Assembly: GCF_003449035.1 (NCBI RefSeq)
Contig: NZ_QRGB01000001.1
Coordinates: 1,736,001-1,800,000 of the forward strand
Length of the DNA stretch: 64,000 bases
Origin: Pedobacter indicus
GTDB lineage: Bacteria > Bacteroidota > Bacteroidia > Sphingobacteriales > Sphingobacteriaceae
Reading direction: 5' to 3'
Shown here: positions 8,882 to 64,000 of the stretch, one piece after another
Layout: each line of letters starts with the position of its first letter
How positions within the stretch are numbered: position 1 is the stretch's first letter
The notes under the pieces: model-generated
Seen by the model: only the letters and a program-made list of their open reading frames with translations
Told to the model about the DNA's origin: nothing
The model's database searches: none
Position numbers and translations under genes: made by a program

Positions 8882-8884
8882 GAA

Positions 8885-46723: not shown

Positions 46724-46788
46724 TAAAAGTACTGTTTACTTTATTGGGAGACGAATTTTGAAAACGATCAATTCTTGCTCAATTCTTA
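46724..46788 (-). promoter_or_regulatory. Tandem 11-bp operator and -7 box, cassette 1
   Basis: On the minus strand two copies of TAAGAATTGAG / CAAGAATTGAT lie head to tail with 11-bp period at 46767-46788. TACTTTTA (46724-46731), like the Bacteroidota -7 box TAnnTTTG, starts 36 bp past the repeat. The spacing matches cassettes 2 and 3 and the 55196 gene. An 11-bp direct repeat is the usual site format of PhoB/OmpR-type response regulators. It starts right after the hydrolase stop codon. Confidence 0.65.
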
Positions 46789-46789
46789 C

Positions 46790-49399
46790 TTACCGCCAAT
46801 CATTGTCAAAGTCTCCAGAACTGATCAGCTGGTAGCGATCCCCACGATAGCGAAATATTTTGAAATCAGAATCGCCTTCATTTGAGAAATCCCTGATCGG
46901 CATACTCTTAATCATCGAATTTGAAGCGATCAGAACAATATACCTGTTGGGCTTAAGTGGATTAGGATAAACAAAAGAAATTAAGATGTCGTTCCCGTTT
47001 ATCCGTTCCTCCCTGAAAACAATGTGGTCTTCGTGAATCTGGATGGGCAACTGTTCTACAATCTTTTGTATTGTTTTATTGTGGAACCGTGTGCCTATCA
47101 AAACCAGGTTTGAGTTTTGAATATCTTCATTCGAAAGGTCAATCTCTTTGACCGAGATCATGTCGTTAAAGTAGATGTTCTGCCATAGGACATTAAGTGT
47201 GTCCCTGATTGGTCGATTTCTGTCAGCAAAGACCACTTTAAAACTATTGGCAAATGCGTGATTGATGGGGCCTTCGACCATATTATTTTTTCTGAAAGCG
47301 AACCTGCTATCCTTGTTATTAAGGTTAAAATAGAGTTTCTCATCAGACTTGACAATGCCGTTTGTCAGAACACCGTTCAATAATATCGTTCGTTCGTTCA
47401 TACGTCCCCGTAAGTCAAGTTCAAACCTGTTCACGTTTTTACTAGATATCCAAATCGTGTCCTTATCGAATGAAACCTTCACGATTGCAATACCGTCTCC
47501 AAGTTTCTCCAAGATCCGTAACCCATGGTTTTCCCCGTACTTTAGTTCAGATGTAGAGACGGTGATGCTATCCGGCCTGAGGTTCCGTTTCTTACCTTTC
47601 AAATACTCGAATGCCGACCTGTACCAGTCTGTCGGAGCTACAAAATGAGTGGTGTTTTCATCGATGTTGAGTACGGGATCCCTGGAATAGTTTTTCATCC
47701 GCTGAAAGATCCGCTCGGCAATTTCCACCGATACCATTTCGTCGTTTTTGGAATGTTGCATGAACAAATATGCATTCGATAGGTTTTCTATCCTGTACTT
47801 GTCGGTGTCGAACTTATTGATATCAAGGTCTGGGCCGTAAAAAATGTTGCCAGCCATCAATGAAGGAAAGCGGGTCGCTAGCGTCAAAGCTTTTCGGGAA
47901 GAGGAACTGCTGCCCAGGATGAATACCCTATCCTCATCAATGCTGTATCTCGTCTTCAGGTCAGCCATTATCTCCTGAAAGGCGGTCATCGCTATATCAT
48001 TGAGCCCCGGATGACCACGGATATTAAGCCAGACCAGCCCAAATCCATATTCGTCCGCCAGTCTCGAATCCCATAGATCCTGATCCCTGTTAGACGTATA
48101 CCAGCTTTCCAGATAGGGGACGGGGATATAACTAAAAGGGCACGAGAGGATCAAGGGGATCTTTTCCTTTCCTTGTTTTAAGCGTTCGGGTATATAGCTG
48201 CTGTAATATTGTTTACTCCCGTCGATTTTAGAGGTATATGCTTTTATCAAGCCATCGAAGTGTATGTTGGCGCCACGTTCCTCCCCGTCCTTCTTAAAGA
48301 AACTGCTGAGTTCCTTTGCATAGAGAACCCTGCTCCGGTCCCAATAGGCCCTGACGAAAGTCGACAGTTCTGGATCGTTGTCTTTGGTCTTCAAAAACTG
48401 CAAGCGTTCGTATGATGCCATCAGATCCATCTTATCCTTTTCCTGCAAGCCGCTGTTCATGGCCGTTTTGTACCTTTCCGAGATTTCATGCAAAATGGTG
48501 TCGAAGTCCCCATAATAGAAATCCTGTTCCAACTTCTCCCCGGCAATGTCAAATTCGATCCGGTAGAGCCCATTCCTTTCCACCGAACTTAAATCAACGG
48601 TCGCCATCCCGGTGCTTTTTGTTATCTGACCCAATTTGCCCTGCGCCACCACGTTCGAGTCGTTGCCAAATATCCTGTAACCGACATCGTCATGGATAAA
48701 TGGCCCTAAGTATGCCGTCAGGTTGGTGTCGACGATACTTTTTGTAAGGATCGAAAACCTATAGTCCGTTAGATAGTTTTCCTTCGCATGTTCCATGCTG
48801 CTTACAAAGAAATTGAACTTCCAATGCGAAGCAGATTCCATATCTGAATAGGCCAGTTTCAGGAGCAGGGTATTGCGGCCTTTTTTTAGTTTTGCCGGCA
48901 CATATTCCTCGTGGTATTTATACTGCACGCGTTTCCAGAGTGTCTCGTACACCGGTTCATTATTAAGCCATAATTTGGCGTGCTGCATACCGCTGAATAC
49001 AAAACTGACATCCTCATCTGTTTTATTGTTTATTTCACAAAATAGGTATACTACACCTTCTTCTTTTTGCACGTAATCCAGTATATTCACTCCCTGCGGT
49101 CTTGTCTTTATCAGGCCGCTTTTGAGGGTTGAATTGCGGCTGCCTACTTTCAGTAGATCGTCGAGGTTTATCTCGGCTTCTTTTGTTCCCGTTTCTAGGT
49201 TCAGGAAGTCGAAATCCATGACTCCCACCCTTGAGAATGAATCTTTAGGAAATGAACCCAAAAAGTGCCAATTTTGTACTTGGATCACATCGACTTGATC
49301 ATCGAATTTTATTTCATTTATTGCTGACGGAGCCCTATTGAAGCATGCCGATGTTATTAAAGAGAGAGTTAAGAATAAAAAAGTATAGCGGATTGTCAT
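46790..49399 (-). CDS. Large lipoprotein with alpha/beta-hydrolase (prolyl-oligopeptidase-like) domain
   Basis: An 869-residue lipoprotein, lipobox 'LITSACFN'. The N-terminal 270 residues look like beta-sandwich domains ('MQHAKLWLNNEPVYETLWKR'). The catalytic domain (about 400-615) has nucleophile elbow GSSSSS at 496-501 (probable nucleophile S498, with the usual last Gly replaced), acid D553 ('QHSKNDEMVS') and base H585 ('DENTTHFVAP'). A C-terminal region of 250 residues follows, with no family I recognise. It could be an esterase or peptidase in the periplasm. Its start overlaps the RND2 stop (ATGA), so it belongs to the export operon and may process the exported substrate; that role is inference. 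Confidence 0.72.
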   Translation of the reverse strand: MTIRYTFLFLTLSLITSACFNRAPSAINEIKFDDQVDVIQVQNWHFLGSFPKDSFSRVGVMDFDFLNLETGTKEAEINLDDLLKVGSRNSTLKSGLIKTRPQGVNILDYVQKEEGVVYLFCEINNKTDEDVSFVFSGMQHAKLWLNNEPVYETLWKRVQYKYHEEYVPAKLKKGRNTLLLKLAYSDMESASHWKFNFFVSSMEHAKENYLTDYRFSILTKSIVDTNLTAYLGPFIHDDVGYRIFGNDSNVVAQGKLGQITKSTGMATVDLSSVERNGLYRIEFDIAGEKLEQDFYYGDFDTILHEISERYKTAMNSGLQEKDKMDLMASYERLQFLKTKDNDPELSTFVRAYWDRSRVLYAKELSSFFKKDGEERGANIHFDGLIKAYTSKIDGSKQYYSSYIPERLKQGKEKIPLILSCPFSYIPVPYLESWYTSNRDQDLWDSRLADEYGFGLVWLNIRGHPGLNDIAMTAFQEIMADLKTRYSIDEDRVFILGSSSSSRKALTLATRFPSLMAGNIFYGPDLDINKFDTDKYRIENLSNAYLFMQHSKNDEMVSVEIAERIFQRMKNYSRDPVLNIDENTTHFVAPTDWYRSAFEYLKGKKRNLRPDSITVSTSELKYGENHGLRILEKLGDGIAIVKVSFDKDTIWISSKNVNRFELDLRGRMNERTILLNGVLTNGIVKSDEKLYFNLNNKDSRFAFRKNNMVEGPINHAFANSFKVVFADRNRPIRDTLNVLWQNIYFNDMISVKEIDLSNEDIQNSNLVLIGTRFHNKTIQKIVEQLPIQIHEDHIVFREERINGNDILISFVYPNPLKPNRYIVLIASNSMIKSMPIRDFSNEGDSDFKIFRYRGDRYQLISSGDFDNDWR

Positions 49400-52300
49400 G
49401 ATTTTTTATATTGCGAATAAAGCTGCTTTTTTCTTCCTACACCCATAAAAAGCGGTAAAAACAAAAAGATTGCAATCAGTGAGACCACCAGCCCTCCAAT
49501 CGTTCCTGCAGCCAATGGAAACCAGAACCCTTCTCTAAAATCACCGATTAAGAAAGGGATGAAACCTAATATCGTTGAAACAATGGTTAAGAGTACCGGT
49601 CTGATCTTTGCGTTCCATGCTTTGATATAAGCTTTGTCTCGAGCTATTTTAAAACGGGAGCGAATAGTATTGTACTCGTCCAGAATATAGATATTAGCGT
49701 TAATGGTGATTCCTGAAAGTAGGATAAAAGAAGCAAAGCCACCCTGATCAAAGTTTAATTCAAACAGGTAAAAGGTCAGAAATATCCCAATAAAAGATAT
49801 CGGTACAACGAATAGGATACAGAGAGGCTGCCGGAATGAGTTGAACAGGATGCTTGTCGTAAAATAAATAACAATAAATATCAGCAACAGCAGAACATAC
49901 TGCTTATTACTATCTTTTCCCCATAAGTTCTGCTGGTCAGCATTAGCAATGGTATATCCCATTGGCAATTGCTTTTCATAATCGTCGATAGCTCGTTCAA
50001 GTACTTTTTTCCCCTGCTCAGCTGCGCCAATGTACTCGTACTGCAAACACAAGCGATATTGTTGATCAACTTTAACTACGCTGTTCGGCGTTTGCTCCCT
50101 TTTAATAACAGCGAGATCAGATAGTTTATAATAGCGGTCATTAAAAAATACCGGTGTATTGTTCAAATCCCAAATATTGTAAATTTCCGAATAGGCAGAC
50201 TTTAAATAAACCTCTTGTCGCTTGTCATCATCAAACAAATCTTCTACGTAGGCTCCGCTATTAAAAATTGTGTTTAGTTGAGCATATAAGTTGATGGGTG
50301 CTATGTTTTCGTAGGCCAGCTTTTCGTTGTCGATATCAAAGTTGTATTCTTCGTAATCATCTTTATACCAGCTGAATTCAGAACGTATATTGACATCGTT
50401 AATCCTTCGGTGTTGAATTAATTCCTGTTTAAAAATAGTTGCTAGCTCCATTAGCTCGTCGTAGTTGTAGCCAAACATCTCAACACGATAGGAGCCGGCG
50501 CCCTCACGTACATCATTGCTAAAACCATCACCGAACCCATAAACACCCCAACTTCCACCCCCAAGTGTCAATGATTTGCTGATCACATTGGCTTTTAGAA
50601 CATGCGGGAAAGCCGTACGCTGATGTTCTTTTTTAAACTGCACATTGATGCTAGCCTGACGGGGGCTGCTGATATTGGTTTGAAACAGGCTTATCTCTTC
50701 AAATTGACTCAAATAAGATTCCATACCCTTTACCAAATTATTCATCTGTTCCAGGGTATAATAATTGGGTAGAGAGGCCGTGATATAGAGATTTGTTTCT
50801 TCCCGGTCAGCATAATAAGAGCCCTCATAAACATCTTCCACGAAAAGACGTAGTGTACCACCCAATGCTTTATCCACATAGGGCTTTATTCCCTCAGTGT
50901 AGGTGTCGCTCCCTAACGTAGCATTATACCATCCTGCAAACCGACTGTCACCCTCCATTTCATCGGGCAACATAAAAACGGGTATACCAAAAGCAAGAAT
51001 CAGCAAGGTGATCACGATCCCTTTTCTTCTATAAAAGATTCGGCATAAACCAAGGTAGAAGTGATTAAAATGATAGTTCAGCCGAATTAGCCATGCGCGT
51101 CTTCCACCATGTTTTTTTATTCGTTTCTTTTCCGAAATTTTCAACTTCTCCATCAATGCCGGAACCAGAAATAAAGCCACAATTAGGGAAAGTGATAGGT
51201 TGATGATCAGTACTATCGCAAAATCAATCAGATTGAGTCTGGTTTTTTCGTCCAGGAAGAAAATTACCGAAAGCGCTATAATGGTCGTCAGTGTCGCCGT
51301 CAGAATAGCAAAGAAGGCCAGAATATTTTTCCGTTTGATGATCTGATCCGCCATGACGATGGTATTGTCAATGATCAAAGTAATCGATATGGTAATCCCC
51401 GCCAGCGAATACAGTTGGATTTCCACCTGAAAAAGATAATAGAAAATGACTGCTGCAAATATATTGACCACCACAGATATAATCACCATGAGTGTATATT
51501 TTAAACTTCGGTAAGCAATCAACACAAAAAGTAATAAAATCAGTAGCGTCAATCCGGTTCGGAAATATATTTTCGCCAACTCCTCTTTGATATAGTCGGT
51601 ACTATCGTAATTCAGGTGAATCTGGTAACCCGGCGAAAAACTCATAGAAAGAGCTTCAATTTCATCTTTTATTTCTTCTGCAAGAGTCAGCTGATTGGCA
51701 TTGTCCTCTGCAACGATAGAAAGGTATATCGAGTTTAGACCATTAACCCGAAAATAACGTTGTGGTTCCGCTTCTACATGAACTATTTCGGCAAGTTGAT
51801 CCAAGTTAATGATTTTTCCGTCTTCTGCTTTTATCTGAATACTACCTAGATCATAAGCTACGGGAAGGGCCAAAACCCTCATCCACTGATCCGTTGTTTC
51901 GTCCACACTTACCCGTCCTAAACCTAAAAACTCTTGTTGCAATTGCTCCTCGATCGCTTGCTCGATCGATTCATGACTGACTTTATGTGCCTCTAATTTC
52001 CGGTAATCATACAATATGTGATATTCTGTGCCCGTAGCTCCATATACATCAATGCGGTGTATCCCTTCAATATGCGCTAATTTAGGGCGAATATTATTCT
52101 CAACATATTCTTGTATATCGGTAGGCGTCAGTGGCGCGTTAACTGTATAATTCAAGAACGATTGGTTTCTGTTATCTGCCTGGGAAACAGTAATACTGGG
52201 ATAAGAGACATTTGAAGGTAGCGAGCTCCATGCTTGTCGGATGATTGTTGACACTTCAAAGCGGGCGTTCTCTATGTTGGTATGCTTATCAAACTCAAGC

Positions 52301-52563
52301 GTAATTTTACCGCTTCCATTATCTGATGAAGAAGTGATTGACCGTACCCCTTTAATCCTGTTCAGCATCGCCTCCAGCTTCGACGTAGTTTCAATTTCAA
52401 CAATACGTGGTGAGCTTCCTGGCATCGCAAATTGAACACTTATCTGAGGTAGCGTTTTAGATGGTGAAAGTTTTACCGAAAGCTCTGGCAAAAGAAATAA
52501 ACCTACAATGGTCAAGCAGACTGCGATCAGGATAATCGAGAAAGAAGAAGCATAGGTTTTCAT
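49396..52563 (-). CDS. RND family efflux permease 2
   Basis: A 1055-residue inner-membrane RND protein, about the usual length. TM1 starts at residue 8, two large periplasmic loops follow, with TM4 'ISITLIIDNTIVMADQIIKR' holding the proton-relay Asp (second Asp of the usual DD replaced by Asn) and the second-half equivalents 'GITINANIYILDEYNTIRSR'. It is the second RND permease of the system and is clearly distinct from the one at 57063-60161, with a degenerate N-terminal consensus. The two may form a heterotrimer, as MdtB/MdtC do. 17 bp follow tolC; overlaps the hydrolase gene by 4 nt. Confidence 0.88.
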   Translation of the reverse strand: MKTYASSFSIILIAVCLTIVGLFLLPELSVKLSPSKTLPQISVQFAMPGSSPRIVEIETTSKLEAMLNRIKGVRSITSSSDNGSGKITLEFDKHTNIENARFEVSTIIRQAWSSLPSNVSYPSITVSQADNRNQSFLNYTVNAPLTPTDIQEYVENNIRPKLAHIEGIHRIDVYGATGTEYHILYDYRKLEAHKVSHESIEQAIEEQLQQEFLGLGRVSVDETTDQWMRVLALPVAYDLGSIQIKAEDGKIINLDQLAEIVHVEAEPQRYFRVNGLNSIYLSIVAEDNANQLTLAEEIKDEIEALSMSFSPGYQIHLNYDSTDYIKEELAKIYFRTGLTLLILLLFVLIAYRSLKYTLMVIISVVVNIFAAVIFYYLFQVEIQLYSLAGITISITLIIDNTIVMADQIIKRKNILAFFAILTATLTTIIALSVIFFLDEKTRLNLIDFAIVLIINLSLSLIVALFLVPALMEKLKISEKKRIKKHGGRRAWLIRLNYHFNHFYLGLCRIFYRRKGIVITLLILAFGIPVFMLPDEMEGDSRFAGWYNATLGSDTYTEGIKPYVDKALGGTLRLFVEDVYEGSYYADREETNLYITASLPNYYTLEQMNNLVKGMESYLSQFEEISLFQTNISSPRQASINVQFKKEHQRTAFPHVLKANVISKSLTLGGGSWGVYGFGDGFSNDVREGAGSYRVEMFGYNYDELMELATIFKQELIQHRRINDVNIRSEFSWYKDDYEEYNFDIDNEKLAYENIAPINLYAQLNTIFNSGAYVEDLFDDDKRQEVYLKSAYSEIYNIWDLNNTPVFFNDRYYKLSDLAVIKREQTPNSVVKVDQQYRLCLQYEYIGAAEQGKKVLERAIDDYEKQLPMGYTIANADQQNLWGKDSNKQYVLLLLIFIVIYFTTSILFNSFRQPLCILFVVPISFIGIFLTFYLFELNFDQGGFASFILLSGITINANIYILDEYNTIRSRFKIARDKAYIKAWNAKIRPVLLTIVSTILGFIPFLIGDFREGFWFPLAAGTIGGLVVSLIAIFLFLPLFMGVGRKKQLYSQYKKS

Positions 52564-52580: not shown

Positions 52581-54053
52581 TTAATGCATTACATCAAACT
52601 GATACGTCAGTGGTTCCTGCTTTTCAAAATCGTACAGCGTCAACTTTCGTAGCTTATAGTAATTTTGCCAGTAGTACCTCAATGTCGAAATATAATTGCT
52701 TTGCGCTTCTTTTTGCCTGTTTTGGGCCAAAGTCAAACTATTTATATCTGCTTTCCCTATGATGAAGCGCGCTTTTGTAGCTTCATATGCCATATTAGCC
52801 AGATCTGAAGCTTCTTGTGCTGAGGCTATCATATCCAGTTGTATTTCAAAATCGTTGAGCGTAATCCGTACCTCCTGATCCAGGCTCAGCTCCTCCTGTT
52901 GGAAGGTAATCTGAGCCACACCCAAATTATTCCTGGCCATATTGGCTTTTCCTTTTCTAACCCCCCAATCCACAAGCGGTACGGTCAAGCTAATAGAAAC
53001 CAGATCTTGCCGAAGTGGCTGATAGTAAGCATCCGCAAAGTTGTTGGCTATTTGATTGAAGCCCACACTTGCGGACAGGCTCGCATCGAATAAAGTACTC
53101 TTTTTAGTCTGGTCAACTTCCCTTTCCGCTTCCAATACCTGTTGTTGATTGGCAAGATAATTTGGGTTGTTGTTCTTAGCATACTCCAGCGCCTTCTCCA
53201 GAGAGATATCTAGTTTCCGCGGCACCTCTGGTAATTCCAAAACAACATCTGTTTCTTTATCCAGGTTCAAATACGATACGAAGCTATACTTTGCTTTTTT
53301 AAGTTCTACCTCTGCATTTTTTAATGTGTTTTGTGCATTGATCGCATCAAGACGGAGTGTTAGTAAGTCTGCCTGAGAAATCGAAGCAATTTGTTGTCTC
53401 TGCTTACCAATGTTGTACAAGGTATCTGTAGATAGTACATTATCTTTCGCCAGGTCATATTCAGCTTGTGCTAAAGCCAAATTGAAAAAGTATTCAATAA
53501 CCGTTTCCGAAATCTCTTCCCGGTCGAAGAGGTACTGTTTCTTGGCCTCCTCATATTTTAGCGGTTCTATCTTCTTCTCCCATTTAAAACTATTAAAACC
53601 AAATAGTGCTTGCGAATATCCCACCCGAATGGGGACAGATGTAAACTGCGTATAGGTACTAGCACCAAAGTTTCGCATATAGCCTAACTCGGAGTCAACG
53701 AACACTGTACCTCCCGTTACGTCAATATTTTGAGCCAGTGAAAGGTTACCATAAGAGAACAAGGATTGTTGCCGGCGGTAGACATCAATATTATTCTCCG
53801 AATCATACCTCCTTGTAAAGTCTCGGGTATACTGAATAGGTGTCATGGTCAAGCTCAGCGTAGGTAGGCGGCCTGCTTTATAGGCATGGTATTCCCAGTA
53901 GCCCGCTTGGTAAAGGTTTTTGGCTCGGAAAGACTGTAAAGAGCTGTCAGCTGCTAATCCGATACTTTCAGAAAGTGAAAGTATTTCAGTTTTCTGAGCT
54001 ATTGCAGAATTACAGAATAATCCGAATATCAATATATATACTAGCTTTTTCAA
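52581..54053 (-). CDS. TolC family outer-membrane factor
   Basis: A 490-residue outer-membrane channel protein with signal peptide ending 'CNSAIAQ'. Two long helical regions typical of TolC: 'FFNLALAQAEYDLAKDNVLS' to 'DLLTLRLDAINAQNTLKNAE', and 'RITLNDFEIQLDMIASAQEA' to 'DINSLTLAQNRQKEAQSNYI', each with the heptad pattern of coiled coils; 'VPLVDWGVRKGKANMARNN' marks the second strand-helix junction. It would form the exit duct for the RND permeases here. The propeller gene upstream ends 3 bp before its start, so they are translationally linked. Confidence 0.9.
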   Translation of the reverse strand: MKKLVYILIFGLFCNSAIAQKTEILSLSESIGLAADSSLQSFRAKNLYQAGYWEYHAYKAGRLPTLSLTMTPIQYTRDFTRRYDSENNIDVYRRQQSLFSYGNLSLAQNIDVTGGTVFVDSELGYMRNFGASTYTQFTSVPIRVGYSQALFGFNSFKWEKKIEPLKYEEAKKQYLFDREEISETVIEYFFNLALAQAEYDLAKDNVLSTDTLYNIGKQRQQIASISQADLLTLRLDAINAQNTLKNAEVELKKAKYSFVSYLNLDKETDVVLELPEVPRKLDISLEKALEYAKNNNPNYLANQQQVLEAEREVDQTKKSTLFDASLSASVGFNQIANNFADAYYQPLRQDLVSISLTVPLVDWGVRKGKANMARNNLGVAQITFQQEELSLDQEVRITLNDFEIQLDMIASAQEASDLANMAYEATKARFIIGKADINSLTLAQNRQKEAQSNYISTLRYYWQNYYKLRKLTLYDFEKQEPLTYQFDVMH

Positions 54054-54056: not shown

Positions 54057-55196
54057 CTATATTTTGAATTTGTATAAAAAGAGGATCGGACTATTGTCAG
54101 TGCTTTCACGATCGAGCAAACATTCTAGTTCCAGATCAAGATCATAACCTGCATTTTTTTTATTTCGCAAATCAGATGGGAGTAGAGTAGCGACGATAAA
54201 TTCATTAATTCTTCCGACCGGTTTACTCATACCTCCAATCTTCATCTTATCTTCGAATATCTTTGTTGTGAAACCAAGAGTTTCACCACTCCGTTTGTTA
54301 TATAGTCCAAGAAAGTGTTGATTGGAGACGGTGTAATAAGTATTTAAAATGTTTCCAGTTTCTAAAATGTCGTAATGAGAAATATATTCAGAATTACGTA
54401 ATGTTTTCAGAGCTCCTTCTTTTTTATCGGATAGTTTATCGAGGTATTCTTTCGGTGGGAGCTCAAAATTTCCGAACCGCAGGTTATACACAGGTTCAAA
54501 CTTGTTATCGTTAAAAGAATAAACGATTGGGTTAAGTTGTGCATAAGCATGAATGTTCCCTTGGCTTTTATAGATCGTCTTCTTGAAGTTTTGAGGTAGA
54601 CTGGATATTTTTTTTATATAAGTGTTTGTTACAGCCATTTTCCGGTTAGATAGGAGAAATTCCCATTCTTTATGGTTAGGCTCATCGTCAACATTCTTTA
54701 TCAAATACTGCTTATCGTCTAAATATTCAAAGCTGGTAGATCGTATTGGTAAGTTTATTTCCGTTATGAAATTATAACTGTATAGACTATAATTGACTAC
54801 TTTTTTTTGGACGAAGTCAACAATGGATATTAATCCAGCTTCTTCATCGATACTGAAAGAATTTGCCATAACGAATTGCCCTTTTTCTTTCCCTCGACTA
54901 CCGATTTGGCTAATAAAATTACCAGATAAGTCAAATGCTGAGAGATATGCATCAGGTCCTTCCGTCAAAATAAATATTTTATTAAGAGCATAGTCTACTT
55001 GGATTATGGACTCTTCAATTAGTTTTTCGTCAGCTTTTAACTTTATATAATTTGTTGCTAATAGATCATAGGGATCAGACCCTTGTTCTTTAAAATCAAG
55101 AGTTAAGACATTTAAACGAGTGTTTTGATTATCGACGTTACATGATCCTAAGACAAGGAAAAAGCAAAAAAATATAAACAGGCAATAATGGTACAT
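54057..55196 (-). CDS. 6-bladed beta-propeller lipoprotein without peptide partner
   Basis: A 379-residue lipoprotein, lipobox 'LVLGSCNVDN', then beta-rich propeller-type repeats ('KIFILTEGPDAYLSAFDLSG', 'GQFVMANSFSIDEEAGLISI'). Same family as the three propellers in the peptide cassettes, but no NVEALA gene precedes it. Instead a tandem repeat/-7 box is 45-109 bp upstream of the start, giving a short leader of about 38 nt. Its stop is 3 bp from tolC, so it is the first gene of a propeller-tolC-RND2-hydrolase operon. Its role may be in the export machine itself, for instance as a sensor or docking lipoprotein (inference). Confidence 0.75.
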   Translation of the reverse strand: MYHYCLFIFFCFFLVLGSCNVDNQNTRLNVLTLDFKEQGSDPYDLLATNYIKLKADEKLIEESIIQVDYALNKIFILTEGPDAYLSAFDLSGNFISQIGSRGKEKGQFVMANSFSIDEEAGLISIVDFVQKKVVNYSLYSYNFITEINLPIRSTSFEYLDDKQYLIKNVDDEPNHKEWEFLLSNRKMAVTNTYIKKISSLPQNFKKTIYKSQGNIHAYAQLNPIVYSFNDNKFEPVYNLRFGNFELPPKEYLDKLSDKKEGALKTLRNSEYISHYDILETGNILNTYYTVSNQHFLGLYNKRSGETLGFTTKIFEDKMKIGGMSKPVGRINEFIVATLLPSDLRNKKNAGYDLDLELECLLDRESTDNSPILFLYKFKI

Positions 55197-55240: not shown

Positions 55241-55305
55241 TGAAATTATGAAGTGGTAGTTTTAATTCAAAAGGAATCACCTCCTCAATTCTTTCTCAAT
55301 TCTTT
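55241..55305 (-). promoter_or_regulatory. Tandem 11-bp operator and -7 box upstream of the 55196 propeller gene
   Basis: Two perfect copies of AAAGAATTGAG (minus strand) at 55284-55305, then TAATTTCA at 55241-55248, starting 36 bp past the repeat. TTTTG lies where a -33 element is expected. The repeat is part of the segment duplicated from the RND1 gene end at 57051-57072, but the sequence below it is not, so the matching -7 box is not explained by the duplication. Confidence 0.65.
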
Positions 55306-55397
55306 TCCTGTTTTCTATAAATCGCCCAATAGGCGAGAGGCACCACAAATACACTGATAATGGTTCCTATGACCATACCACCAATCGTAGCAATCGC
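55284..55397 (-). repeat. Direct repeat copy 2 (RND1 3' end plus operator)
   Basis: About 114 bp align without gaps to 57051-57164 (offset 1767) with 6 mismatches by eye. The two copies bracket cassette 2. Recombination between them would delete the peptide and propeller genes at 55421-56832. Confidence 0.9.
55296..55397 (-). pseudogene. Remnant of an RND permease C-terminus
   Basis: The minus strand encodes 33 residues (AIATIGGMVIGTIISVFVVP, then LAYWAIYRKQEKN and stop) identical to the end of RND permease 1 at 57063-60161. All six nucleotide differences are third-position synonymous changes (for example GCG/GCA, ATT/ATC, CCT/CCC). Upstream of 55397 the similarity stops abruptly. An ATG at 55422-55424 overlaps the propeller stop and could open a 42-codon frame, but the rest of the permease is missing, so I treat it as a remnant. 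The pattern suggests origin from a diverged functional homolog, not decay after local duplication. Confidence 0.85.
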
Positions 55398-55420
55398 CCT
55401 CAGCCGTTTTATCGCCATTC

Positions 55421-56509
55421 TCATCTCAATTCTTGTAATATTTGTCTGATGTCGTATTTATAGAGTTCATCCGAATGAACATCAAAAGTATACATTTCAC
55501 CTCTATTGAGATCGAAATCGAAAGACGTAATATGATGTTCAAGGTTAATCTCTATTAGTGGTTTTCCGTCATAATCAAAGAACAGAATTCGGGGTTTTTT
55601 TTCTCGGTTTGTCTGATAGATCGATTCCTTTTCATTAATATGCAGAGTTCCAAAATAGTTATCGAACAATCTTAAGTCAGCAAACGTATAAAGTCTGTCA
55701 CCTAGACTTTTTTGTTGGATTTTATTTATGTCGTTTAATTTTGATTCAACCGAGACAGTTTTTTTGAAAATACCATCCAAGGAGTAAATGTTAAGATGAT
55801 TTAGACCAATGGGCATTTCAACTATCTTTCCATTTTTATTGTGAGCTTTTGTAATGGTCGATAGTATATTAATATCTTCATTCATTTCGATTTTAGCACT
55901 ATTCAATACATTTAGCACTTCAGACGTTTTCTTTTCGTTTCTGTGATATAGATACCTAAGTTGCTGAGTTAGATCTGGGCTCGCTTCCTTGAATAAATAT
56001 TGTGACGAATCAATTACAACTGAATTAAATAAAAAAGGTGGAATAGAGTCCGTTACAATCGAAATACTTAAAGCTTTATCATTAATTGATTTGTCAATAT
56101 TCATTTTTAATAATCTACCCCTTTGAGAGTCATAAATATATGCATAGAGCGAGTCGTATGTGTGAAGAGTGCCTTTAGTAGCTATACTCGGAGGTTGTAA
56201 GAACTGAAAAGGGCCTTCGCCTATTGTCAAGAAATTGCCAAGTATCGAATAATCATTTAGTGAAACAAATGACCACAGGCCATCATCGTCGATTGTAGAA
56301 AAAATTAATAGTGAGTCATGTATAGCGAAATTACGAATACCAATTACATCGATGTCAACGAAGGTTCTTTCTTTTAAAGTAACGCTTTTTGGAAATTTTT
56401 TAACGAAATCAACCTGTTTAAACGCCATATTATTAGTGATTGACTCTTTACAACCAACTGTTAATATGGCAAAGACCAAGATCATCAGATGAATGTTTTT
56501 TTTTCTCAT
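55421..56509 (-). CDS. 6-bladed beta-propeller lipoprotein (cassette 2)
   Basis: A 362-residue lipoprotein starting MRKKNIHLMILVFAILTVGC, lipobox 'LTVGC'. A Met 11 codons upstream lies inside the intergenic hairpin and gives a poor signal peptide, so I reject it. Beta-rich propeller repeats: 'IRNFAIHDSLLIFSTIDDDG', 'LHTYDSLYAYIYDSQRGRLL', 'FDFDLNRGEMYTFDVHSDEL'. It follows the NVEALA peptide gene on the same strand by 59 bp. Its last codons contain one CAAGAATTGAG half-site. It directly abuts the RND1 remnant, marking the end of the inserted unit. Confidence 0.75.
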   Translation of the reverse strand: MRKKNIHLMILVFAILTVGCKESITNNMAFKQVDFVKKFPKSVTLKERTFVDIDVIGIRNFAIHDSLLIFSTIDDDGLWSFVSLNDYSILGNFLTIGEGPFQFLQPPSIATKGTLHTYDSLYAYIYDSQRGRLLKMNIDKSINDKALSISIVTDSIPPFLFNSVVIDSSQYLFKEASPDLTQQLRYLYHRNEKKTSEVLNVLNSAKIEMNEDINILSTITKAHNKNGKIVEMPIGLNHLNIYSLDGIFKKTVSVESKLNDINKIQQKSLGDRLYTFADLRLFDNYFGTLHINEKESIYQTNREKKPRILFFDYDGKPLIEINLEHHITSFDFDLNRGEMYTFDVHSDELYKYDIRQILQELR

Positions 56510-56531
56510 TGAATATTGACTAAGAGTTAAA

Positions 56532-56555
56532 ACACCCTCCACAACTGGAGGGTGT
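56532..56555 (-). terminator. Stem-loop between peptide and propeller genes (cassette 2)
   Basis: A perfect 10-bp inverted repeat, ACACCCTCCA (56532-56541) and TGGAGGGTGT (56546-56555), tetraloop CAAC, followed on the minus strand by TTTTAAC. It lies 13 bp after the peptide stop. It would lower propeller transcription relative to peptide, or protect the peptide mRNA 3' end. Confidence 0.7.
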
Positions 56556-56568
56556 AACTAGATAATAA

Positions 56569-56832
56569 TTAACATTTATCGGAGGAAGAGTTCCATGCGT
56601 AAGTTCCGTCCACAAATTCGCAAGTTTGACAATATCGTACTTGACTTCCTTCTTTAGTCGTAATCGTATTATAACAAGTCTCTTTGTCATCTTCTTCACC
56701 AGTCGCCAAAGCTTCTATATTGTTCATAGTTAACATTGAGATGTTATTATCATCTTTTTTAATATTTAAATTAATTGCTGCAAATAATGCAACGACGATT
56801 GCAGCTGAAGCTGTTAAGATTTTCTTTTTCAT
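56569..56832 (-). CDS. NVEALA-family Cys-containing exported peptide (cassette 2)
   Basis: An 87-residue peptide: MKKK, hydrophobic segment to about 22 with NLN at 21-23, signature MNNIEALATGE at 36-46 and core 47-87 with Cys at 53, 68, 71 and 87. The core pattern CYNTIT, C-x2-C, Ser-rich, terminal Cys matches the cassette 1 peptide (CYSTIT, C-x2-C, SSSS, Cys), so these two are one subtype. Upstream lies a 220-bp region with the operator at 57051-57072. Export presumably uses the Sec-like leader; whether cleavage follows the GE motif is not known. Function unknown. Confidence 0.8.
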   Translation of the reverse strand: MKKKILTASAAIVVALFAAINLNIKKDDNNISMLTMNNIEALATGEEDDKETCYNTITTKEGSQVRYCQTCEFVDGTYAWNSSSDKC

Positions 56833-57007
56833 TGTTTTAGATTAATAATGTGAATTAAATAAATGACTACATATATCATTTCAGTAGTCTTCAGATATAT
56901 ACATATAAATGTATTTTTGTTATATCAAACCTCCTTTTTTTAATCTATAGAAGTAAGATTCGTGTTCTTATTCCTATGTGTGATGAATATTTAATTTCGA
57001 AATATTT

Positions 57008-57072
57008 TAAAATTACAGCTCATAAAACATCATCCCAAGAGAATCATCCTCTCAATTCTTTCTCAATTCTTT
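57008..57072 (-). promoter_or_regulatory. Tandem 11-bp operator and -7 box, cassette 2
   Basis: Two perfect copies of AAAGAATTGAG (minus strand) at 57051-57072, TTG 13-15 nt further, and TAATTTTA at 57008-57015, which starts 36 bp past the repeat. The repeat overlaps the last codons and stop of RND1 (AAG AAT TGA encodes K-N-stop), so the operator is embedded in coding sequence. Predicted transcript start near 57001, leaving a leader of about 170 nt before the peptide. Confidence 0.65.
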
Positions 57073-57164
57073 TCCTGTTTTCTATAAATCGCCCAATAGG
57101 CTAGGGGTACCACAAATACACTGATAATGGTTCCTATGACCATGCCACCAATCGTAGCGATTGC
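57051..57164 (-). repeat. Direct repeat copy 1 (intact RND1 3' end plus operator)
   Basis: Partner of 55284-55397. Here the segment is the real end of the RND1 gene. See the remnant entry for the synonymous differences between the copies. Confidence 0.9.
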
Positions 57165-60161
57165 GAGCGGTTTCTCAAGTTCAGACCCCATATCACTACT
57201 GAAAAGTAAGGGTGCCATACAAACAATTGATGTTAAACTAGTCATGAGTATGGCATTGAGCCTTCGTTTTCCTGCCTCATGAATAGATTCTATGAGGGGG
57301 ACACCCGATCGGCGAAGTTGATTCATCATGTCAACTTTCAGAATACTATCGTTGATGATAATGCCACAAGTCACAATAATTCCGATTGCTGACATTAAGT
57401 TTAAAGAATGTCCCAAAATCAACAGTAAAGCTAGCGCAGCTGCTATCGCAATCGGTATTTCTAAAAGTACAATCAGTGGCTGGACAAAACTTTCAAACTG
57501 TGCCGCTAAGATGAAATACATCAGCATGATGGATATGGCCAAGATGATCATCATTTCGGTCAGCATCTCGTTGTTTGTGAAGTAGGAACCTGAAAAACTG
57601 ATATCCCAATCTGAGAAGGAAGCCTGATTCGCCTCAATTTTATCGATAAGCTGTTCAGCATGATTAGTTTCAAAAAAATGATAAGGTATATATTCACCAG
57701 TCCTGCCCGCAATAATTGATTTTAAATCTTCTGAGGTAGTCGTGCTGACAAAACTGTTCAGGGGCAAGGATTCCGTTCTACCATTTTCATCAGCCTCAGT
57801 TTGTACAAGTGAGCTTTCCAATATGTCATGTAGATCGGTCTCTTGGTTACTGGCTACCACAATAGGAAGATATTGCTGATAGGAGCGGAGTGTCGTTATT
57901 TCACTTTCGCTCAAACTGGTTTCCAATGTTTGCAAAAGTGTGTTGAAAGACACATTATACAACAGTAATTTAGCGCGATCGATATGAATATTAATCTGAT
58001 TTTCGAAGGATTCGATAGAGGGGACTTGAGCCGTTATATGCGAAAGATCGTTACCCATTTTTTCAATTTCACCCGCTGTAATTGACCGGTGGATGTTCTT
58101 TTTGTATAACTCCATTGTCAAATCTGGCTCATTGGTTGCGAAAATACTCTCAAAGATCGTATTGGAAGGCGCAAAGCTTATCGCAGCATCTGGATGGTTT
58201 CCCGAAAAATAATCCTGAACCTTCTTTGTAATAACAGGGATGTCTTCATCACTAGGCACCTTCAAATAAATTTCAGATTCAGTAGATGTCTTTTCCCGAT
58301 CTTTATTCAGCAGAAACTGTTGTTCACCTACGAGTGCTGCGCTTTCTATAACACCGGAATCAAGGTTTTGAAGGAAGTGTCTGATTCTGTTTTCGTTCGC
58401 TTCCAGATTAATATTTTCATTCCATTCGACCGTAACTACCAGTTCATTTTGACTGATATCAGGCATCTTTTCTTTAGGAATAAGTTGCAGTAGCAGAAAG
58501 CAGAAAGGAAGTAATGCCACCATAACCGTCGCCGTGAGTAATTTATGTCTGAAGATCCAGTCTGTTCCTTGATGGTAAATTCTATGATGAAGGGGCTCTT
58601 TTTCATTATTGGGTTCAGTTCTACTGTCTTTACTTCCAAAGCGTTTAGCGAAGTTTATAGTGCCCTTTGGCTTTATGGAGTAAACCGTTTTGTACAAAAC
58701 CGGTACAAACATAATCCCCGTCAGATAGGAGACCATCAGTCCCACAGCAACCGAAAATGCCTGATCAAAAAAAATCGCTCCTGCAATACCACTTAGAAAA
58801 ATCAGGGGCATGAATACCGATATGGTGGTCAATGCAGAACTCAGCATTGGCGCGATAACCTCGTTCGTTCCCATTACAACGGCATCGTCAAGTGTCAAGC
58901 CCTTTTTTTGATATTGGCCGATGTTGTCCGTAACAATAATCGAATTATCAATCATCATTCCTAGAGCCAGAATCAACCCCGTAAGCGAAACCACATTCAA
59001 CGAAATATTGAACAGATAGAAAAAGAGAAATGCAATAATAAGTGAAACAAACACACTGATTCCGATAATAAGCGGCGCACGGATATCGCTTAGAAAAAAT
59101 ATGGATACCAGACACACGAAAATAAATGCGAGAATAAGGTTTTGTTGCAGATTTGAAATGGTATAATCCAGTAACTCGGTTTGGTTTTGAGAAATATCAA
59201 AAGCAATCTGAGGGTAATTCAGCCGAAGTTGGTCGACGACATCGCTCAAACCTTCCTGCATGGTAGCCATATTCTCATCCGCTTGCTTGATGATGTCCAG
59301 AACTATCGCACGCTTCCCATTGTAAAAAGAGATACCCTTTTCCTGAATCGGCACCTCCTTAATCTGAGCTATATCCTTAAACTGATAGATCTTCTCATTT
59401 TTTTTGATGTAAATATTTGCAACATCAGAGACTGTCCGCAACAGAGATGAGAAGTTGATGTTATATTCATAATGCCCGTCTTTAATCTTCATGCTTCCCG
59501 GCTCAATGTTGTTATTGAGCAGGCTATTTTCCAGGTCTGCATACGTGATTCCTGATATTGCCAGGGTTTGCTTATCAGGTATAATGCTTACCTGCTTTTT
59601 TACCAGACCCGTCATGTCAACCATGGATATTTCCGGTAACTGTTCGATTCTTCTTCTGATGACTGATTCAGAAAGTTCACTCAATTCCAGAAAAGAGGCC
59701 ATGTTATGCTCACCATAGGGTAAATCCTCTTTCAGCGTCAGGTTCAGTTTGAATACCGGAATATCTGTAGCGCTGGCTTTTACCACTCTTGGCCGGTCAA
59801 TCGAACGTGGAATATAATTCATCGCCACATCAATCTTTTCATTGACTTCAATAAATGCTAAGTCAATATCAGCCCCGTATTTAAAATTAAGCTTAATAAC
59901 TGAGTTCCCGTCTCGCGTCTCGGTTCTCAAGTCTTGTAGCTTGCCTACCTGCAGCAGCTGGCGTCTTATTGGGGATACAACCGAATTTTCAAGCTCACGC
60001 GCAGAGATGTTGTTTCCAGAAACCTGCACCGTAATTTCTGGGATTGGTATATTAGGCAATAATGAAACCGGAACATTCATATAGGTAATCATGCCTATAA
60101 TGAAAAAAGCCGTGACCGCCATAAATACAGCAATAGGTCTGTTTATCAGGTGTCTAACCAT
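57063..60161 (-). CDS. RND family efflux permease 1
   Basis: A 1032-residue inner-membrane proton-driven RND transporter (HAE1-type). TM1 from residue 13, 'VPVSLLPNIPIPEITVQVSG' in the porter domain, TM4 'GLILALGMMIDNSIIVTDNI' with the relay Asp (second Asp is Asn), a cytosolic loop, and second-half 'AIGIIVTCGIIINDSILKVD'. The C-terminus ends RKQEKN. It follows the adaptor gene by 3 bp. Downstream the path to tolC and RND2 is interrupted by cassette 2 and an orphan propeller. Substrate unknown; the neighbours suggest export of NVEALA peptides or of a metabolite they control. Confidence 0.92.
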   Translation of the reverse strand: MVRHLINRPIAVFMAVTAFFIIGMITYMNVPVSLLPNIPIPEITVQVSGNNISARELENSVVSPIRRQLLQVGKLQDLRTETRDGNSVIKLNFKYGADIDLAFIEVNEKIDVAMNYIPRSIDRPRVVKASATDIPVFKLNLTLKEDLPYGEHNMASFLELSELSESVIRRRIEQLPEISMVDMTGLVKKQVSIIPDKQTLAISGITYADLENSLLNNNIEPGSMKIKDGHYEYNINFSSLLRTVSDVANIYIKKNEKIYQFKDIAQIKEVPIQEKGISFYNGKRAIVLDIIKQADENMATMQEGLSDVVDQLRLNYPQIAFDISQNQTELLDYTISNLQQNLILAFIFVCLVSIFFLSDIRAPLIIGISVFVSLIIAFLFFYLFNISLNVVSLTGLILALGMMIDNSIIVTDNIGQYQKKGLTLDDAVVMGTNEVIAPMLSSALTTISVFMPLIFLSGIAGAIFFDQAFSVAVGLMVSYLTGIMFVPVLYKTVYSIKPKGTINFAKRFGSKDSRTEPNNEKEPLHHRIYHQGTDWIFRHKLLTATVMVALLPFCFLLLQLIPKEKMPDISQNELVVTVEWNENINLEANENRIRHFLQNLDSGVIESAALVGEQQFLLNKDREKTSTESEIYLKVPSDEDIPVITKKVQDYFSGNHPDAAISFAPSNTIFESIFATNEPDLTMELYKKNIHRSITAGEIEKMGNDLSHITAQVPSIESFENQINIHIDRAKLLLYNVSFNTLLQTLETSLSESEITTLRSYQQYLPIVVASNQETDLHDILESSLVQTEADENGRTESLPLNSFVSTTTSEDLKSIIAGRTGEYIPYHFFETNHAEQLIDKIEANQASFSDWDISFSGSYFTNNEMLTEMMIILAISIMLMYFILAAQFESFVQPLIVLLEIPIAIAAALALLLILGHSLNLMSAIGIIVTCGIIINDSILKVDMMNQLRRSGVPLIESIHEAGKRRLNAILMTSLTSIVCMAPLLFSSDMGSELEKPLAIATIGGMVIGTIISVFVVPLAYWAIYRKQEKN

Positions 60162-60164: not shown

Positions 60165-61259
60165 TTATTCCGTTACTTTTACCACTGTCTCATGCGCCAG
60201 GTTTACGTTACCGTCATAAATTACCTGATCGCCTTCGTTCAAGCCTTCAGCGATCATGTATTCAGAAGCGTTCTCACCGCCGACCGTCACATAATTCCAC
60301 TGTGCTTTACCATTTTCGTAGGTAAAAACTACTTCTTTATTATTTCGCAACACCAATGCTTCCTTGGGTATTGTCAGCTGTTTGGCTAGCAGTTTCTGAA
60401 TTTGCACCCTCACGTTCATTCCATCATACAGCTTCATGCCTCCAGTTTGCGAGATACCAGCTTGAATTTTCACCATGCCGTTTTTGTCGACCAGGGGGTT
60501 TATTTCCGTTATCCTTCCTTCAGCTACTTTGCCATTATAAGAGACAGGCATTACGCGTACTTTATTATTACTTTGAATAAGCTGTAATTCACTTTCCAGT
60601 ACGCTGAAATCGACGTTAAAACTGCCCGTTGCCAGAACCGTACAAAACGGTTCATCTGAAGCGGGTATATTATGTTCCTGTGTAAAGAGGTTTGCGATGA
60701 TACCTGAAAAAGGCGCATAAAGTACGGTGTTCTTTAGGTTGTGGTCAGCAAGCCGAAATTGAATAATAGACTTATCATATCCGCTACGAACCCTTGCCAA
60801 CTCCATAATTGCTTTGGGAACGTTGACGGAGTCTTCCAGCGTATAGCCCTGACCGATCAAAACATCCTGTAATTCCAGTCGCGCTTGTTTTAAAGCATCT
60901 GAAGCCTGATCCAGTTCATTTTGATAGTTGAACCTGTCGAGACTTGCTATTTTCTGTCCGACAGCTACCCGCTGACCATTTTTGACATATATGTGCTCAA
61001 TCACATCTGGCTGTTCAAACCTCAAGTCAGCTTTCTTTGCTGCGGACACAATACCATTCGAAACAATATCCCTATTGAAATCTTTGATTTCAACTGTTTT
61101 TACTTTAACAAGATTATCGGCATCTGGTAGGACGATGTTCTCCGTATTCTCGTTTTCATCCTTGTTTTTTGAATTTGAACAGGAAAAGAAAACCGTTGAA
61201 AAAACAACAGTAACTAAAAGGCATTTCGTTATAATATTTTCGGTCATAAGAATTGGCAA
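60165..61259 (-). CDS. RND periplasmic adaptor lipoprotein (HlyD/AcrA family)
   Basis: A 364-residue membrane-fusion protein that bridges the RND permeases and TolC. Lipobox 'VFFSCSNS' anchors it to a membrane. The biotinyl-lipoyl half motif 'VIEHIYVKNGQRVAVGQKIA' is followed by a short helical hairpin (about 115-165) and 'LKNTVLYAPFSGIIANLF', then beta-barrel and membrane-proximal domains ('LKYDGMNVRVQI'-type 'MKLYDGMNVRVQIQ'). A start at MTENIITK four codons later is equally possible. It starts the adaptor-RND1 unit and is divergent from cassette 3; one repeat site (61326-61347) lies 67 bp upstream. Confidence 0.9.
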   Translation of the reverse strand: MPILMTENIITKCLLVTVVFSTVFFSCSNSKNKDENENTENIVLPDADNLVKVKTVEIKDFNRDIVSNGIVSAAKKADLRFEQPDVIEHIYVKNGQRVAVGQKIASLDRFNYQNELDQASDALKQARLELQDVLIGQGYTLEDSVNVPKAIMELARVRSGYDKSIIQFRLADHNLKNTVLYAPFSGIIANLFTQEHNIPASDEPFCTVLATGSFNVDFSVLESELQLIQSNNKVRVMPVSYNGKVAEGRITEINPLVDKNGMVKIQAGISQTGGMKLYDGMNVRVQIQKLLAKQLTIPKEALVLRNNKEVVFTYENGKAQWNYVTVGGENASEYMIAEGLNEGDQVIYDGNVNLAHETVVKVTE

Positions 61260-61325
61260 AACGTTTTTTTGTAAATCTACTGCCTAGCGAACGATGAACA
61301 AAAGAATATAAATAGTGAAATCTTA

Positions 61326-61347
61326 CTCAATTCTTTCTCGAAATATT
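61326..61347 (-). promoter_or_regulatory. Degenerate tandem operator upstream of the RND adaptor gene
   Basis: On the minus strand, AATATTTCGAG followed by a perfect AAAGAATTGAG (61326-61336). One half is degenerate, and no TAnnTTTA box lies 36 bp downstream as it does in the other sites, so regulation here may be weaker or different. Orientation toward the adaptor gene agrees with the others. Confidence 0.45.
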
Positions 61348-61399: not shown

Positions 61400-61465
61400 A
61401 AAGAATTCAGAAAGAATTGAGTATCTCGATTATTGAAGAAAACGGATGATTAGGTAATATCTTTA
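61400..61465 (+). promoter_or_regulatory. Tandem 11-bp operator and -7 box, cassette 3
   Basis: AAAGAATTCAG and AAAGAATTGAG in tandem at 61400-61421, TTG at 61433-61435, and TATCTTTA at 61458-61465, which starts 37 bp past the repeat. Spacing and orientation relative to the gene are nearly the same as in the minus-strand cassettes. Predicted start near 61471 leaves a leader of about 190 nt. Confidence 0.62.
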
Positions 61466-61658: not shown

Positions 61659-61910
61659 ATGAAAAAGAAAATTTTGGGAGCTGTAGCTGCTACAGCATTT
61701 GCCGCCGTAATGGCATTAAACTTAAATGTTGGCATTGGTGCCAATGAAACATCTGCCTTGACTATGAATAATATAGAGGCTTTGGCCAATGGTGAAGGTG
61801 CCGATTGCCCGAACGGATGCAAAGATGTTGGATGGGGAACTCAAGAAATATTAAAATGTGATTGTACTTATACAAGCTATTTTTCGAGTTGTGATTCTTG
61901 GGGTTGTTGA
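61659..61910 (+). CDS. NVEALA-family Cys-rich exported peptide (cassette 3)
   Basis: An 83-residue peptide with the same leader plan as the other two: MKKKIL, hydrophobic segment, NLN at 21-23, signature MNNIEALANGE at 36-46. The core (47-83) differs: six Cys at 50, 54, 67, 69, 78 and 83, Gly/Trp-rich ('DVGWGTQEILKCDCTYTSYF'), three possible disulfides. Thus the leader is conserved and the core variable, as in secreted effector or signalling peptides. It lies on the opposite strand from cassettes 1 and 2. Function unknown. Confidence 0.8.
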   Translation: MKKKILGAVAATAFAAVMALNLNVGIGANETSALTMNNIEALANGEGADCPNGCKDVGWGTQEILKCDCTYTSYFSSCDSWGC

Positions 61911-61963: not shown

Positions 61964-62995
61964 ATGCGTAATTTATATTTATTTATAATAGGACTTGTGT
62001 TACTATTCTCATGTAACAATAGCGAAACTAGGGAAACGAAAGAGTTTCCAAGGCATATTACATTAACTGCTCAAAAGCAGCAAATAGATCAGGTAATAAA
62101 ACCTGTAAATATGACTATATATGACGATTTTTTGATTATTCAAAACGATCGAATTCCTGATTCACATTGTTTTTATGTGTATTCTATCGAAACACTAGAC
62201 TTCCTTTACAGTTTTGGCTCATTTGGAGAAAGTGAAGATGAGTATCTTGCACCTCGTATTTCCCGTAGTGTTGACAACGAACATTTTGCTGTTTTCGATC
62301 AAAGAACTCGGAATATCAATTTGTATAATATTACTAATGAGTCTGCTGAACTTGTTGAACGAAAGAATATGAATGAACCTACTAAGTTCCCTCTTCAGGA
62401 ATTGAGTTTTGTCAATGATTCTGTCCTTCTTTATTTATCAGTAGATAACAAGGTTGTATCATATAACCTGAATCAGGAGAGCATAGTCGATACAATACAA
62501 TTCGACACGGGAATTGAGAGCTATTTAGGCGGTGAATATAGTCAGTCTATGGATTTTTTCCATTTTGCTAATTATGGCAATAGAATCGTTACTGGACACA
62601 ATTTCATAAATAGAATAACCGCTAATCAATCTGATGATAGAGGCCTTTTTCAAACAAATGTTGTTTCTATGACAAAAGAAAGGCCGAATAATTTTAACTC
62701 GAGTTTATATGATAATATTTATCAGTACGTATACGTTTATGCTAGTGCGGAAAATGTCTTTGCACAGTATTCCGGATATAAATTTAAAACATTGCAGCCG
62801 TTTCCAATGAACATGGGCAAAAGGCATTTCGACTTCCTGATGGAAGTTTATGATTGGGATTTAAAGCCTAAAGTTTTGTTGGAATTTGATAATAATATTA
62901 TGACTTGTGTAATTGATGAAGAGAGAAAGAGAATTATAACTTGGGATCCATTAGAAGATTTGAACTATTTATTGGTTTACGATTATGATATTTAA
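61964..62995 (+). CDS. 6-bladed beta-propeller lipoprotein (cassette 3)
   Basis: A 343-residue lipoprotein, lipobox 'LLFSCNNSE'. Propeller-like beta repeats: 'MTIYDDFLIIQNDRIPDSHC', 'FYVYSIETLDFLYSFGSFGE', 'HFAVFDQRTRNINLYNITNE', 'ISYLVYDYDI'-like C-terminus ('NYLLVYDYDI'). It ends the plus-strand peptide cassette, 53 bp after the peptide gene, and is convergent with the TPR protein gene (10 bp between stops). Family BF3164/TolB-like lipoproteins; function not known. Sequence differs widely from the other three propellers, matching the variable peptides. Confidence 0.75.
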   Translation: MRNLYLFIIGLVLLFSCNNSETRETKEFPRHITLTAQKQQIDQVIKPVNMTIYDDFLIIQNDRIPDSHCFYVYSIETLDFLYSFGSFGESEDEYLAPRISRSVDNEHFAVFDQRTRNINLYNITNESAELVERKNMNEPTKFPLQELSFVNDSVLLYLSVDNKVVSYNLNQESIVDTIQFDTGIESYLGGEYSQSMDFFHFANYGNRIVTGHNFINRITANQSDDRGLFQTNVVSMTKERPNNFNSSLYDNIYQYVYVYASAENVFAQYSGYKFKTLQPFPMNMGKRHFDFLMEVYDWDLKPKVLLEFDNNIMTCVIDEERKRIITWDPLEDLNYLLVYDYDI

Positions 62996-63005: not shown

Positions 63006-64000
63006 CTAAAAACAATTTTCACAACCATCGACAAAGTCGTTGGTTGTGGATCTGGAAGTAGTTTTTTCAAGCGAATCTAAAACGTTTTTCATGTCGTTTC
63101 TCATTTGTTCGGTTGCAGGCGAAGTAATCTTAATATTCGTATCTAATAGGTTCTGTACACTTTCTTTTGCTTTCTCCAAATCATTGATTTCTATGTACAA
63201 TCGTGTCAACAAATAAGATGGATACAACCTATGAGGAACCAAGTTCATTGCAAATAAATAATGTTCAATAGCCTGATCATATTCTCCCAATGCTTGATGA
63301 TTTTTTCCTAAAATATTATATATCATGGGGTCGCAACTGCGCTCCTTAGCTCTTCCTAAGATTAAATTGCTAGTACGATAGTCTTTTATATTGGATAGTA
63401 TATGACCATATTCAAAAAGATACTCTACATTGTGTTTTAAAGCCTCATATTCTTCTGAATATGACTTTTCTGCTGTTTCATAAGATTTTGTGTTGTATAG
63501 GTAACGAGACTTTGTCCATGCTTGATAAGATTCATATATCTCCTTCTGCTGAGCAGCAATATATACAGTCGAACAAAATGCAGAAATGTAAAACAAAAAT
63601 ACAGGAACTCGTGCGATCGGTTTATTGATACTTTCGTAGTCTTCTGAAGAGTTGCATATAGCGATCAGGACGATAAGGGAAATAACAAATGGCATTAGAC
63701 TAAAAGGGTAGGACATACCCGCAAACACCAATAAAGAAATCAAACCACCTAACGGTGCTATCTTTTTGTTCTTAATAGCCGAAGAAATGGAGAGAGCTAA
63801 AATTGTAAGGAAAAGCAAAAAGGGAAAAATTCCCCACTCCGCACATATCTGAAGATATTCATTGAATGCGTATTGAGGAACACCTGCAATCATTTCTTCT
63901 TGTTCCGTTCCATTTTTGTTTTCGAAATATTCTGCTTGATATTTACCATAGCTTCCTGCATAGAATCCTATACCAACACCAAATGGATTGTCTTTAATTT
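63006..64000 (-). CDS. O-antigen ligase-like membrane protein with TPR domain, partial
   Basis: The frame stays open to the right edge, so the gene is truncated by the window; the readable part is 331 residues. Just inside the edge it reads NPFGVGIGFYAGSYGKYQ and then 'PQYAFNEYLQICAEWGIFPF', like the periplasmic loop of the Wzy_C/O-antigen ligase family. Four membrane segments and a soluble C-terminus with TPR-like helices ('YNILGKNHQALGEYDQAIEH', 'LTRLYIEINDLEKAKESVQN') follow. The last residues are CENCF. Polysaccharide ligation or polymerisation is the family role. The position next to cassette 3 may be meaningful, or just chromosome context. Confidence 0.8.
   Translation of the reverse strand, partial: IKDNPFGVGIGFYAGSYGKYQAEYFENKNGTEQEEMIAGVPQYAFNEYLQICAEWGIFPFLLFLTILALSISSAIKNKKIAPLGGLISLLVFAGMSYPFSLMPFVISLIVLIAICNSSEDYESINKPIARVPVFLFYISAFCSTVYIAAQQKEIYESYQAWTKSRYLYNTKSYETAEKSYSEEYEALKHNVEYLFEYGHILSNIKDYRTSNLILGRAKERSCDPMIYNILGKNHQALGEYDQAIEHYLFAMNLVPHRLYPSYLLTRLYIEINDLEKAKESVQNLLDTNIKITSPATEQMRNDMKNVLDSLEKTTSRSTTNDFVDGCENCF
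63020..63048 (-). terminator. Hairpin at the 3' end of the TPR/ligase gene
   Basis: CACAACCATCGAC (63020-63032) pairs with GTCGTTGGTTGTG (63036-63048) with one mismatch and a 3-nt loop. On the minus strand it is followed by AAAATTGTTTTT, which overlaps the stop at 63006. A terminator for this gene embedded in its last codons is plausible. Confidence 0.5.

Follow-up and report, generated by a model that had tools for sequence, protein, structure and literature searches.

The 3' end of the transporter gene RND1 occurs twice in the window, by which we mean the whole 64,000-nucleotide stretch of the Pedobacter indicus genome that was analysed, and the two copies bracket a cargo cassette. This repeat is, on balance, probably the scar left by module stacking in which the RND1 tail anchored the recombination, with the two tails derived from diverged alleles and the putative operators retained. 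It is the only direct repeat of at least 40 bp within the window. Copy A' (55265..55397, minus strand) and copy A (57032..57164, minus strand) match over 133 nt with 90% identity, or over 124 nt with 92.7% identity by blastn (E 2e-47). Copy A lies at the end of the full-length RND1 gene, and copy A' contains a remnant of the same 3' end, comprising 33 codons and the stop codon (55296..55397, minus strand). The earlier note had drawn the edge of the repeated region at 55284. The repeat is indeed found there, but its real boundary is at 55265, and an operator-like element of 22 bp has its edge at 55284. Homology between A and A' extends ~26 nt beyond the RND1 stop codon, and their identical block ends ~16 bp past this element. 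With the remnant as query, A and A' were the only copies in the whole 3.47-Mb genome and plasmid records gave no match; an Rfam search of 44-64 kb found nothing. On the other side, sequence comparison places a non-homologous joint between the TolB-like stop codon and the remnant (55398..55420, minus strand).

The genes around the repeat are read from the minus strand in the order HlyD, RND1, NVEALA, TolB-like, RND1-tail remnant, DUF5128 propeller, OEP, RND2 and S9-like. The HlyD-type adaptor (60165..61259, identified by profile search) is followed by RND1, an AcrB-type transporter (57063..60161; Pfam ACR_tran, E 7e-160). Cassette 2 then comprises an NVEALA peptide gene (56569..56832), the product of which passes the PF14055 gathering cut-off (35.9 vs 27 bits), and a gene for a TolB-like six-bladed propeller lipoprotein (55421..56506, with a possible ORF start at 56542). 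The latter scores 23.9 bits against PF15869, below the gathering cut-off of 29.2 bits, and is propeller-like rather than a member of that family. The peptide and the lipoprotein thus fall in or near PF14055 (NVEALA) and PF15869 (TolB_like), both of which are uncharacterised families; no mention of NVEALA was found in the literature searched. Beyond the remnant, profile searches identified a unit that starts with a cargo-like DUF5128 propeller (54057..55196, 33.6% G+C) and continues with an OEP/TolC-like outer-membrane efflux protein (52581..54053) and the RND2 transporter (49396..52563). A weakly S9-like protein (46790-49399) comes next. Cassette 1 is located on the plus strand (NVEALA 61659-61910, TolB-like 61964-62995), and a further NVEALA gene lies at ~46416-46570.

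The closest RND1 proteins are ~60-63% identical and are scattered across Bacteroidota, including Sphingobacterium of the same family. In most of the related loci the OEP and RND2 genes follow RND1 within a few to tens of bases, and only a minority carry NVEALA or propeller genes between RND1 and OEP (the window, L007, L017 and L062) or beside HlyD. Judged by this comparison of gene orders, cassette 2 is an insertion in the canonical HlyD-RND1-OEP-RND2 order. Since OEP normally directly follows RND1 in related loci, the DUF5128 propeller has probably been inserted as well. The base composition differs between these groups of genes: the TolB-like gene has 32% G+C vs 41% for RND1, and the cargo genes in the RND1-OEP gap together have 32-34% vs 40-42% for HlyD, RND1, OEP and RND2.

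Other genes recur next to the NVEALA genes and RND1 exporters of these loci, namely a signal peptidase (Peptidase_S26) and a Wzy_C/TPR membrane protein (L110 4292-7074; window 63006-64000, continuing into L091 3007-5742), which suggests a larger conserved peptide-export system without a literature of its own. Outside the window, L091 also holds a further module (5767-7546) with an NVEALA peptide, a propeller with a strong TolB_like match (247.7 bits) and a lipoprotein of 178 residues that has a CxxC-like motif and no Pfam match. This module has an operator-like site to itself, at window coordinate 67627. A dispersed repeat of ~100 bp, with many copies in this genome and in its congener G001, lies at ~11950-12115 of L091.

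The remnant encodes the same 33 residues and stop as the end of RND1, and exactly six nucleotides differ between them, each at a third position and each synonymous, as the earlier note had recorded. Its argument that a decaying duplicate would gather non-synonymous changes also holds. Between 23 and 27% of random changes in the remnant sequence are synonymous, and on this basis six out of six would arise in a freely decaying copy with a probability of ~1.5e-4 to 4e-4. The two tail copies differ with dS ~0.32 and dN 0. Because all six coding differences are synonymous, both tails most likely diverged as functional RND1 alleles. The diverged homolog that had been proposed as the source of the remnant is supported to this extent: the copies diverged under constraint at the protein level, a pattern that agrees better with two functional RND1 alleles than with decay. 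The searched collections contained no RND1 with more than ~63% identity, and G001, the only congener in the comparison, is without an RND1 locus.

The repeat also carries a putative operator across the RND1 stop codon, which consists of two 11-bp direct repeats of AAAGAATTGAG; the full element can be written as two 11-bp direct repeats of [ACT]AAGAATTGAG. In copy A this element (57051..57072, minus strand) precedes cassette 2, and its first half-site encodes the K-N-stop end of RND1. In copy A' it lies at 55284..55305 (minus strand) ahead of the propeller-OEP-RND2 unit. Each is followed at 36 nt by a -7-like element, TAATTTTA (57015-57008, minus strand) and TAATTTCA (55248-55241, minus strand), respectively. 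Within the window, a weaker operator-like element with its -7-like element 36 nt on is found upstream of HlyD-RND1 (61315..61336, minus strand), another upstream of cassette 1 (61400..61421, plus strand; -7-like element 37 nt on), and another just past the S9-like stop, upstream of the NVEALA gene at ~46416-46570 (46767..46788, minus strand). Outside it, a site heads the NVEALA gene at C1:1803369. Six putative operator sites were thus found at this locus, heading NVEALA cassettes and exporter units. Four of the five genome occurrences of AGAAAGAATTGAG fall in this locus. A candidate at 72223 (plus strand, outside the window) is without a -7-like element and probably does not belong to the set.

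The related loci contain 22 putative operator sites, compared with none in a reversed-sequence control, and most of these precede NVEALA, signal peptidase, Wzy-like or HlyD genes. Of 28 sites, 23 are followed at position 36 by a TAnnTTTR-like element, which resembles the -7 boxes of Bacteroidota. In 39 of 40 sampled relatives the motif is absent. A better supported part of our reading is that a conserved operator-like element, common to all units of the locus, lies within the repeat. As this element and the RND1 stop codon overlap, a separate site would be kept both by cassette 2 and by the displaced propeller-TolC-RND2 unit, and each does retain a putative operator. The displaced genes would thus have had a reason to retain the duplicated piece, since it carries a putative operator and promoter element. 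The spacers between the operators and the -7-like elements of A and A' match at only 11 of their last 27 nt. Equal spacing with unrelated spacers suggests two separately evolved modules joined to allelic RND1 tails. Ahead of the start codon, the leaders of NVEALA genes share two stems, GGGCGG...CCGCCC and CCTCC...GGAGG (L007 7390-7520; L009 1030-1130 and 8840-8940; L017 10075-10180), which could form an RNA structure.

A gene for an OmpR-type response regulator (PF00486 domain) is found with a kinase gene at C1:1803.7-1805.9 kb, the regulator itself occupying C1:1805191-1805868. Orthologues of the regulator with 49-61% identity are present in all 8 tested RND1-bearing members of the family; in 7 of these the orthologue is on the RND1 contig, ~13-32 kb away, and in G213 it is on another contig. 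The RND1-less congener G001 has just a 35% paralogue. No regulator was found within the related loci as fetched, and the orthologues lie outside the fetched flanks. Direct repeats of 11 bases are a hallmark of OmpR/PhoB/ArcA sites (PMC3798270). The sites described here resemble those operators in their direct repeats of 11 bp centre-to-centre, in having at least two half-sites and in the OmpR-type regulator nearby; they differ in their consensus, AAAGAATTGAG, and in the overlap of the putative site with the stop codon of the preceding gene. An 11-bp period, a fixed promoter spacing and a co-occurring OmpR-family regulator, as expected of an OmpR/PhoB-type operator, are all found here, and we infer that the regulator may act on these sites.

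The architecture of the window recurs in L007 (BNYG01000028.1), a locus of a termite-gut Bacteroidia. There, RND1 ends at 7367 and is followed by an NVEALA gene (7599-7877), a propeller gene (7962-8993), an extra ORF and then a copy of the RND1 tail from 9638. This 423-bp copy comprises the RND1 tail, the leader and the first part of a broken NVEALA gene, and DUF5128 propellers and OEP follow it. A fragment of the anchor gene is therefore present downstream of the inserted module both here and in L007. The L007 copy has four coding differences, three of them synonymous. It has no start codon and is preceded by an in-frame stop; without a start codon, the pattern cannot be due to coding constraint on this copy. 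The C-terminus of the L007 RND1 ends in a dispersed repeat of the AGLTRHP type (7316-7365) that is also found elsewhere in the contig (3032-3081, 4620-4661 and 9703-9752); a repeat element has thus become part of the protein end. HlyD N-terminal fragments lie beside modules in L061 (99% identical) and L074 (50% identical). Overall, exporter-gene fragments accompany modules in 4 of ~95 loci, and in 2 of these the fragments are RND1 tails. The common start of propeller and HlyD in L031, L035 and L067 was left uncounted, as it may just be an exchanged signal sequence, and so were repeats near the RND1 stop in L027 and L062, which lie outside the RND1 coding sequence.

The gain of cassette 2 by recombination at the RND1 end, as the earlier note had proposed, is favoured by the architecture of L007 and by the HlyD fragments of L061 and L074, and the cassette may have been acquired horizontally from a related locus. 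The recombination pathway itself can be outlined as follows. A segment from a related RND1 locus would have brought in an RND1 3' end, the operator and an NVEALA/TolB-like module. It would have entered via homologous recombination in the RND1 tail together with one non-homologous joint at 55398-55420. Either a single crossover of a recircularised fragment or homology-facilitated illegitimate recombination could have produced this joint. The resulting order would be RND1-operator-promoter-NVEALA-TolB-like, followed by RND1 tail-operator-promoter-propeller-OEP-RND2. In the case of homology-facilitated illegitimate recombination, the native tail would be the remnant and the immigrant one that of the full-length gene, opposite to the original wording; with a single crossover both copies would be hybrids.

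There are precedents for both routes. In E. coli, single crossovers of recircularised DNA gave gene-end duplications of 109-950 bp (PMC3240628). As in the window, a partial copy of a gene end brackets the inserted DNA, but that case involved experimental plasmid DNA of identical sequence, whereas the present one is natural and its copies are 6% diverged. In V. cholerae, T6SS clusters underwent sequential displacement of effector-immunity modules, for which homology-facilitated illegitimate recombination was proposed (PMC5361080). The T6SS clusters and the displacement of Rhs C-terminal regions resemble the present locus in that modules are added beside a conserved secretion gene, while older cargo and gene-end fragments are pushed downstream. 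Unlike in those systems, an RND pump gene, and not a toxin gene, provides the anchor here with its 3' end, and the pump stays intact. The displaced copy also carries a putative operator, and the cargo is an NVEALA peptide and a propeller lipoprotein.

An alternative that we regard as unlikely is tandem duplication of a segment with the full RND1, divergence of the copies under selection and then deletion of most of the second copy down to its tail. Such a history would also yield differences that are only synonymous, and some loci do contain tandem partial copies of neighbouring genes, for example ~1.2 kb at 84.9% in L036. However, it needs a 3-kb paralogue to be retained until dS reached ~0.3 and then, in two unrelated genomes (the window and L007), to be deleted almost entirely up to a point near the tail. 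Beyond ~16 bp, the sequences that follow the two operators are also unlike each other.

It is quite improbable that the duplication was kept only for the operator it supplies, its coding part being passive and its synonymy a matter of luck. In its favour, the element is 100% identical in both copies and its flanks differ, but the luck amounts to a chance of ~2e-4, and L007 adds three synonymous differences out of four. Slightly more improbable still would be the view that selection on the remnant itself explains the synonymy, the remnant being a functional small gene for a 42-residue membrane peptide, made up of MRMAIKRLR and the last RND1 helix, that is translationally coupled to the TolB-like gene via ATGA. 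Upstream, the frame does stay open as far as an ATG overlapping the TolB-like stop (a 42-codon ORF), and the predicted peptide has a basic-hydrophobic-basic layout. Yet the equivalent in L007, with no in-frame start and after an in-frame stop, is preserved nonetheless, the high identity runs past the stop through the operator-like element, and no other locus has a free-standing RND1-tail ORF. Finally, it is very unlikely that an integrase uses the AAAGAATTGAG repeat as its attachment site, with the 133-bp repeat as the two att sites of an integrated element. The copies do bracket a cassette, and sequences like them are present where other modules start, but there is no integrase gene in between, and a recent att duplication would be nearly identical, which this diverged repeat is not. 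Site-specific recombination was also set aside on the grounds that the motif behaves like an operator: it keeps a fixed distance of 36 nt to the -7-like element and precedes exporter operons in many genera.

Under the preferred reading, that of module stacking anchored in the RND1 tail, a duplicated scrap of a gene becomes evidence on how a widespread, uncharacterised peptide-export locus of Bacteroidota gains its cargo. Cassettes would be exchanged via recombination in exporter genes, and a dedicated putative operator would mark the start of each unit. The combination of this operator with NVEALA and propeller genes may serve as a sequence handle for finding the cargoes of the exporter family, and it predicts a testable two-component regulon. 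More tentatively, the operator-bearing end of the pump gene may be a reusable docking site, at which modules with their own operator copy recombine at gene ends and join the two-component control of the exporter. This is a possibility to which we give rather less than even credence; if it were true, one RND exporter could gather several separately regulated peptide cargoes.
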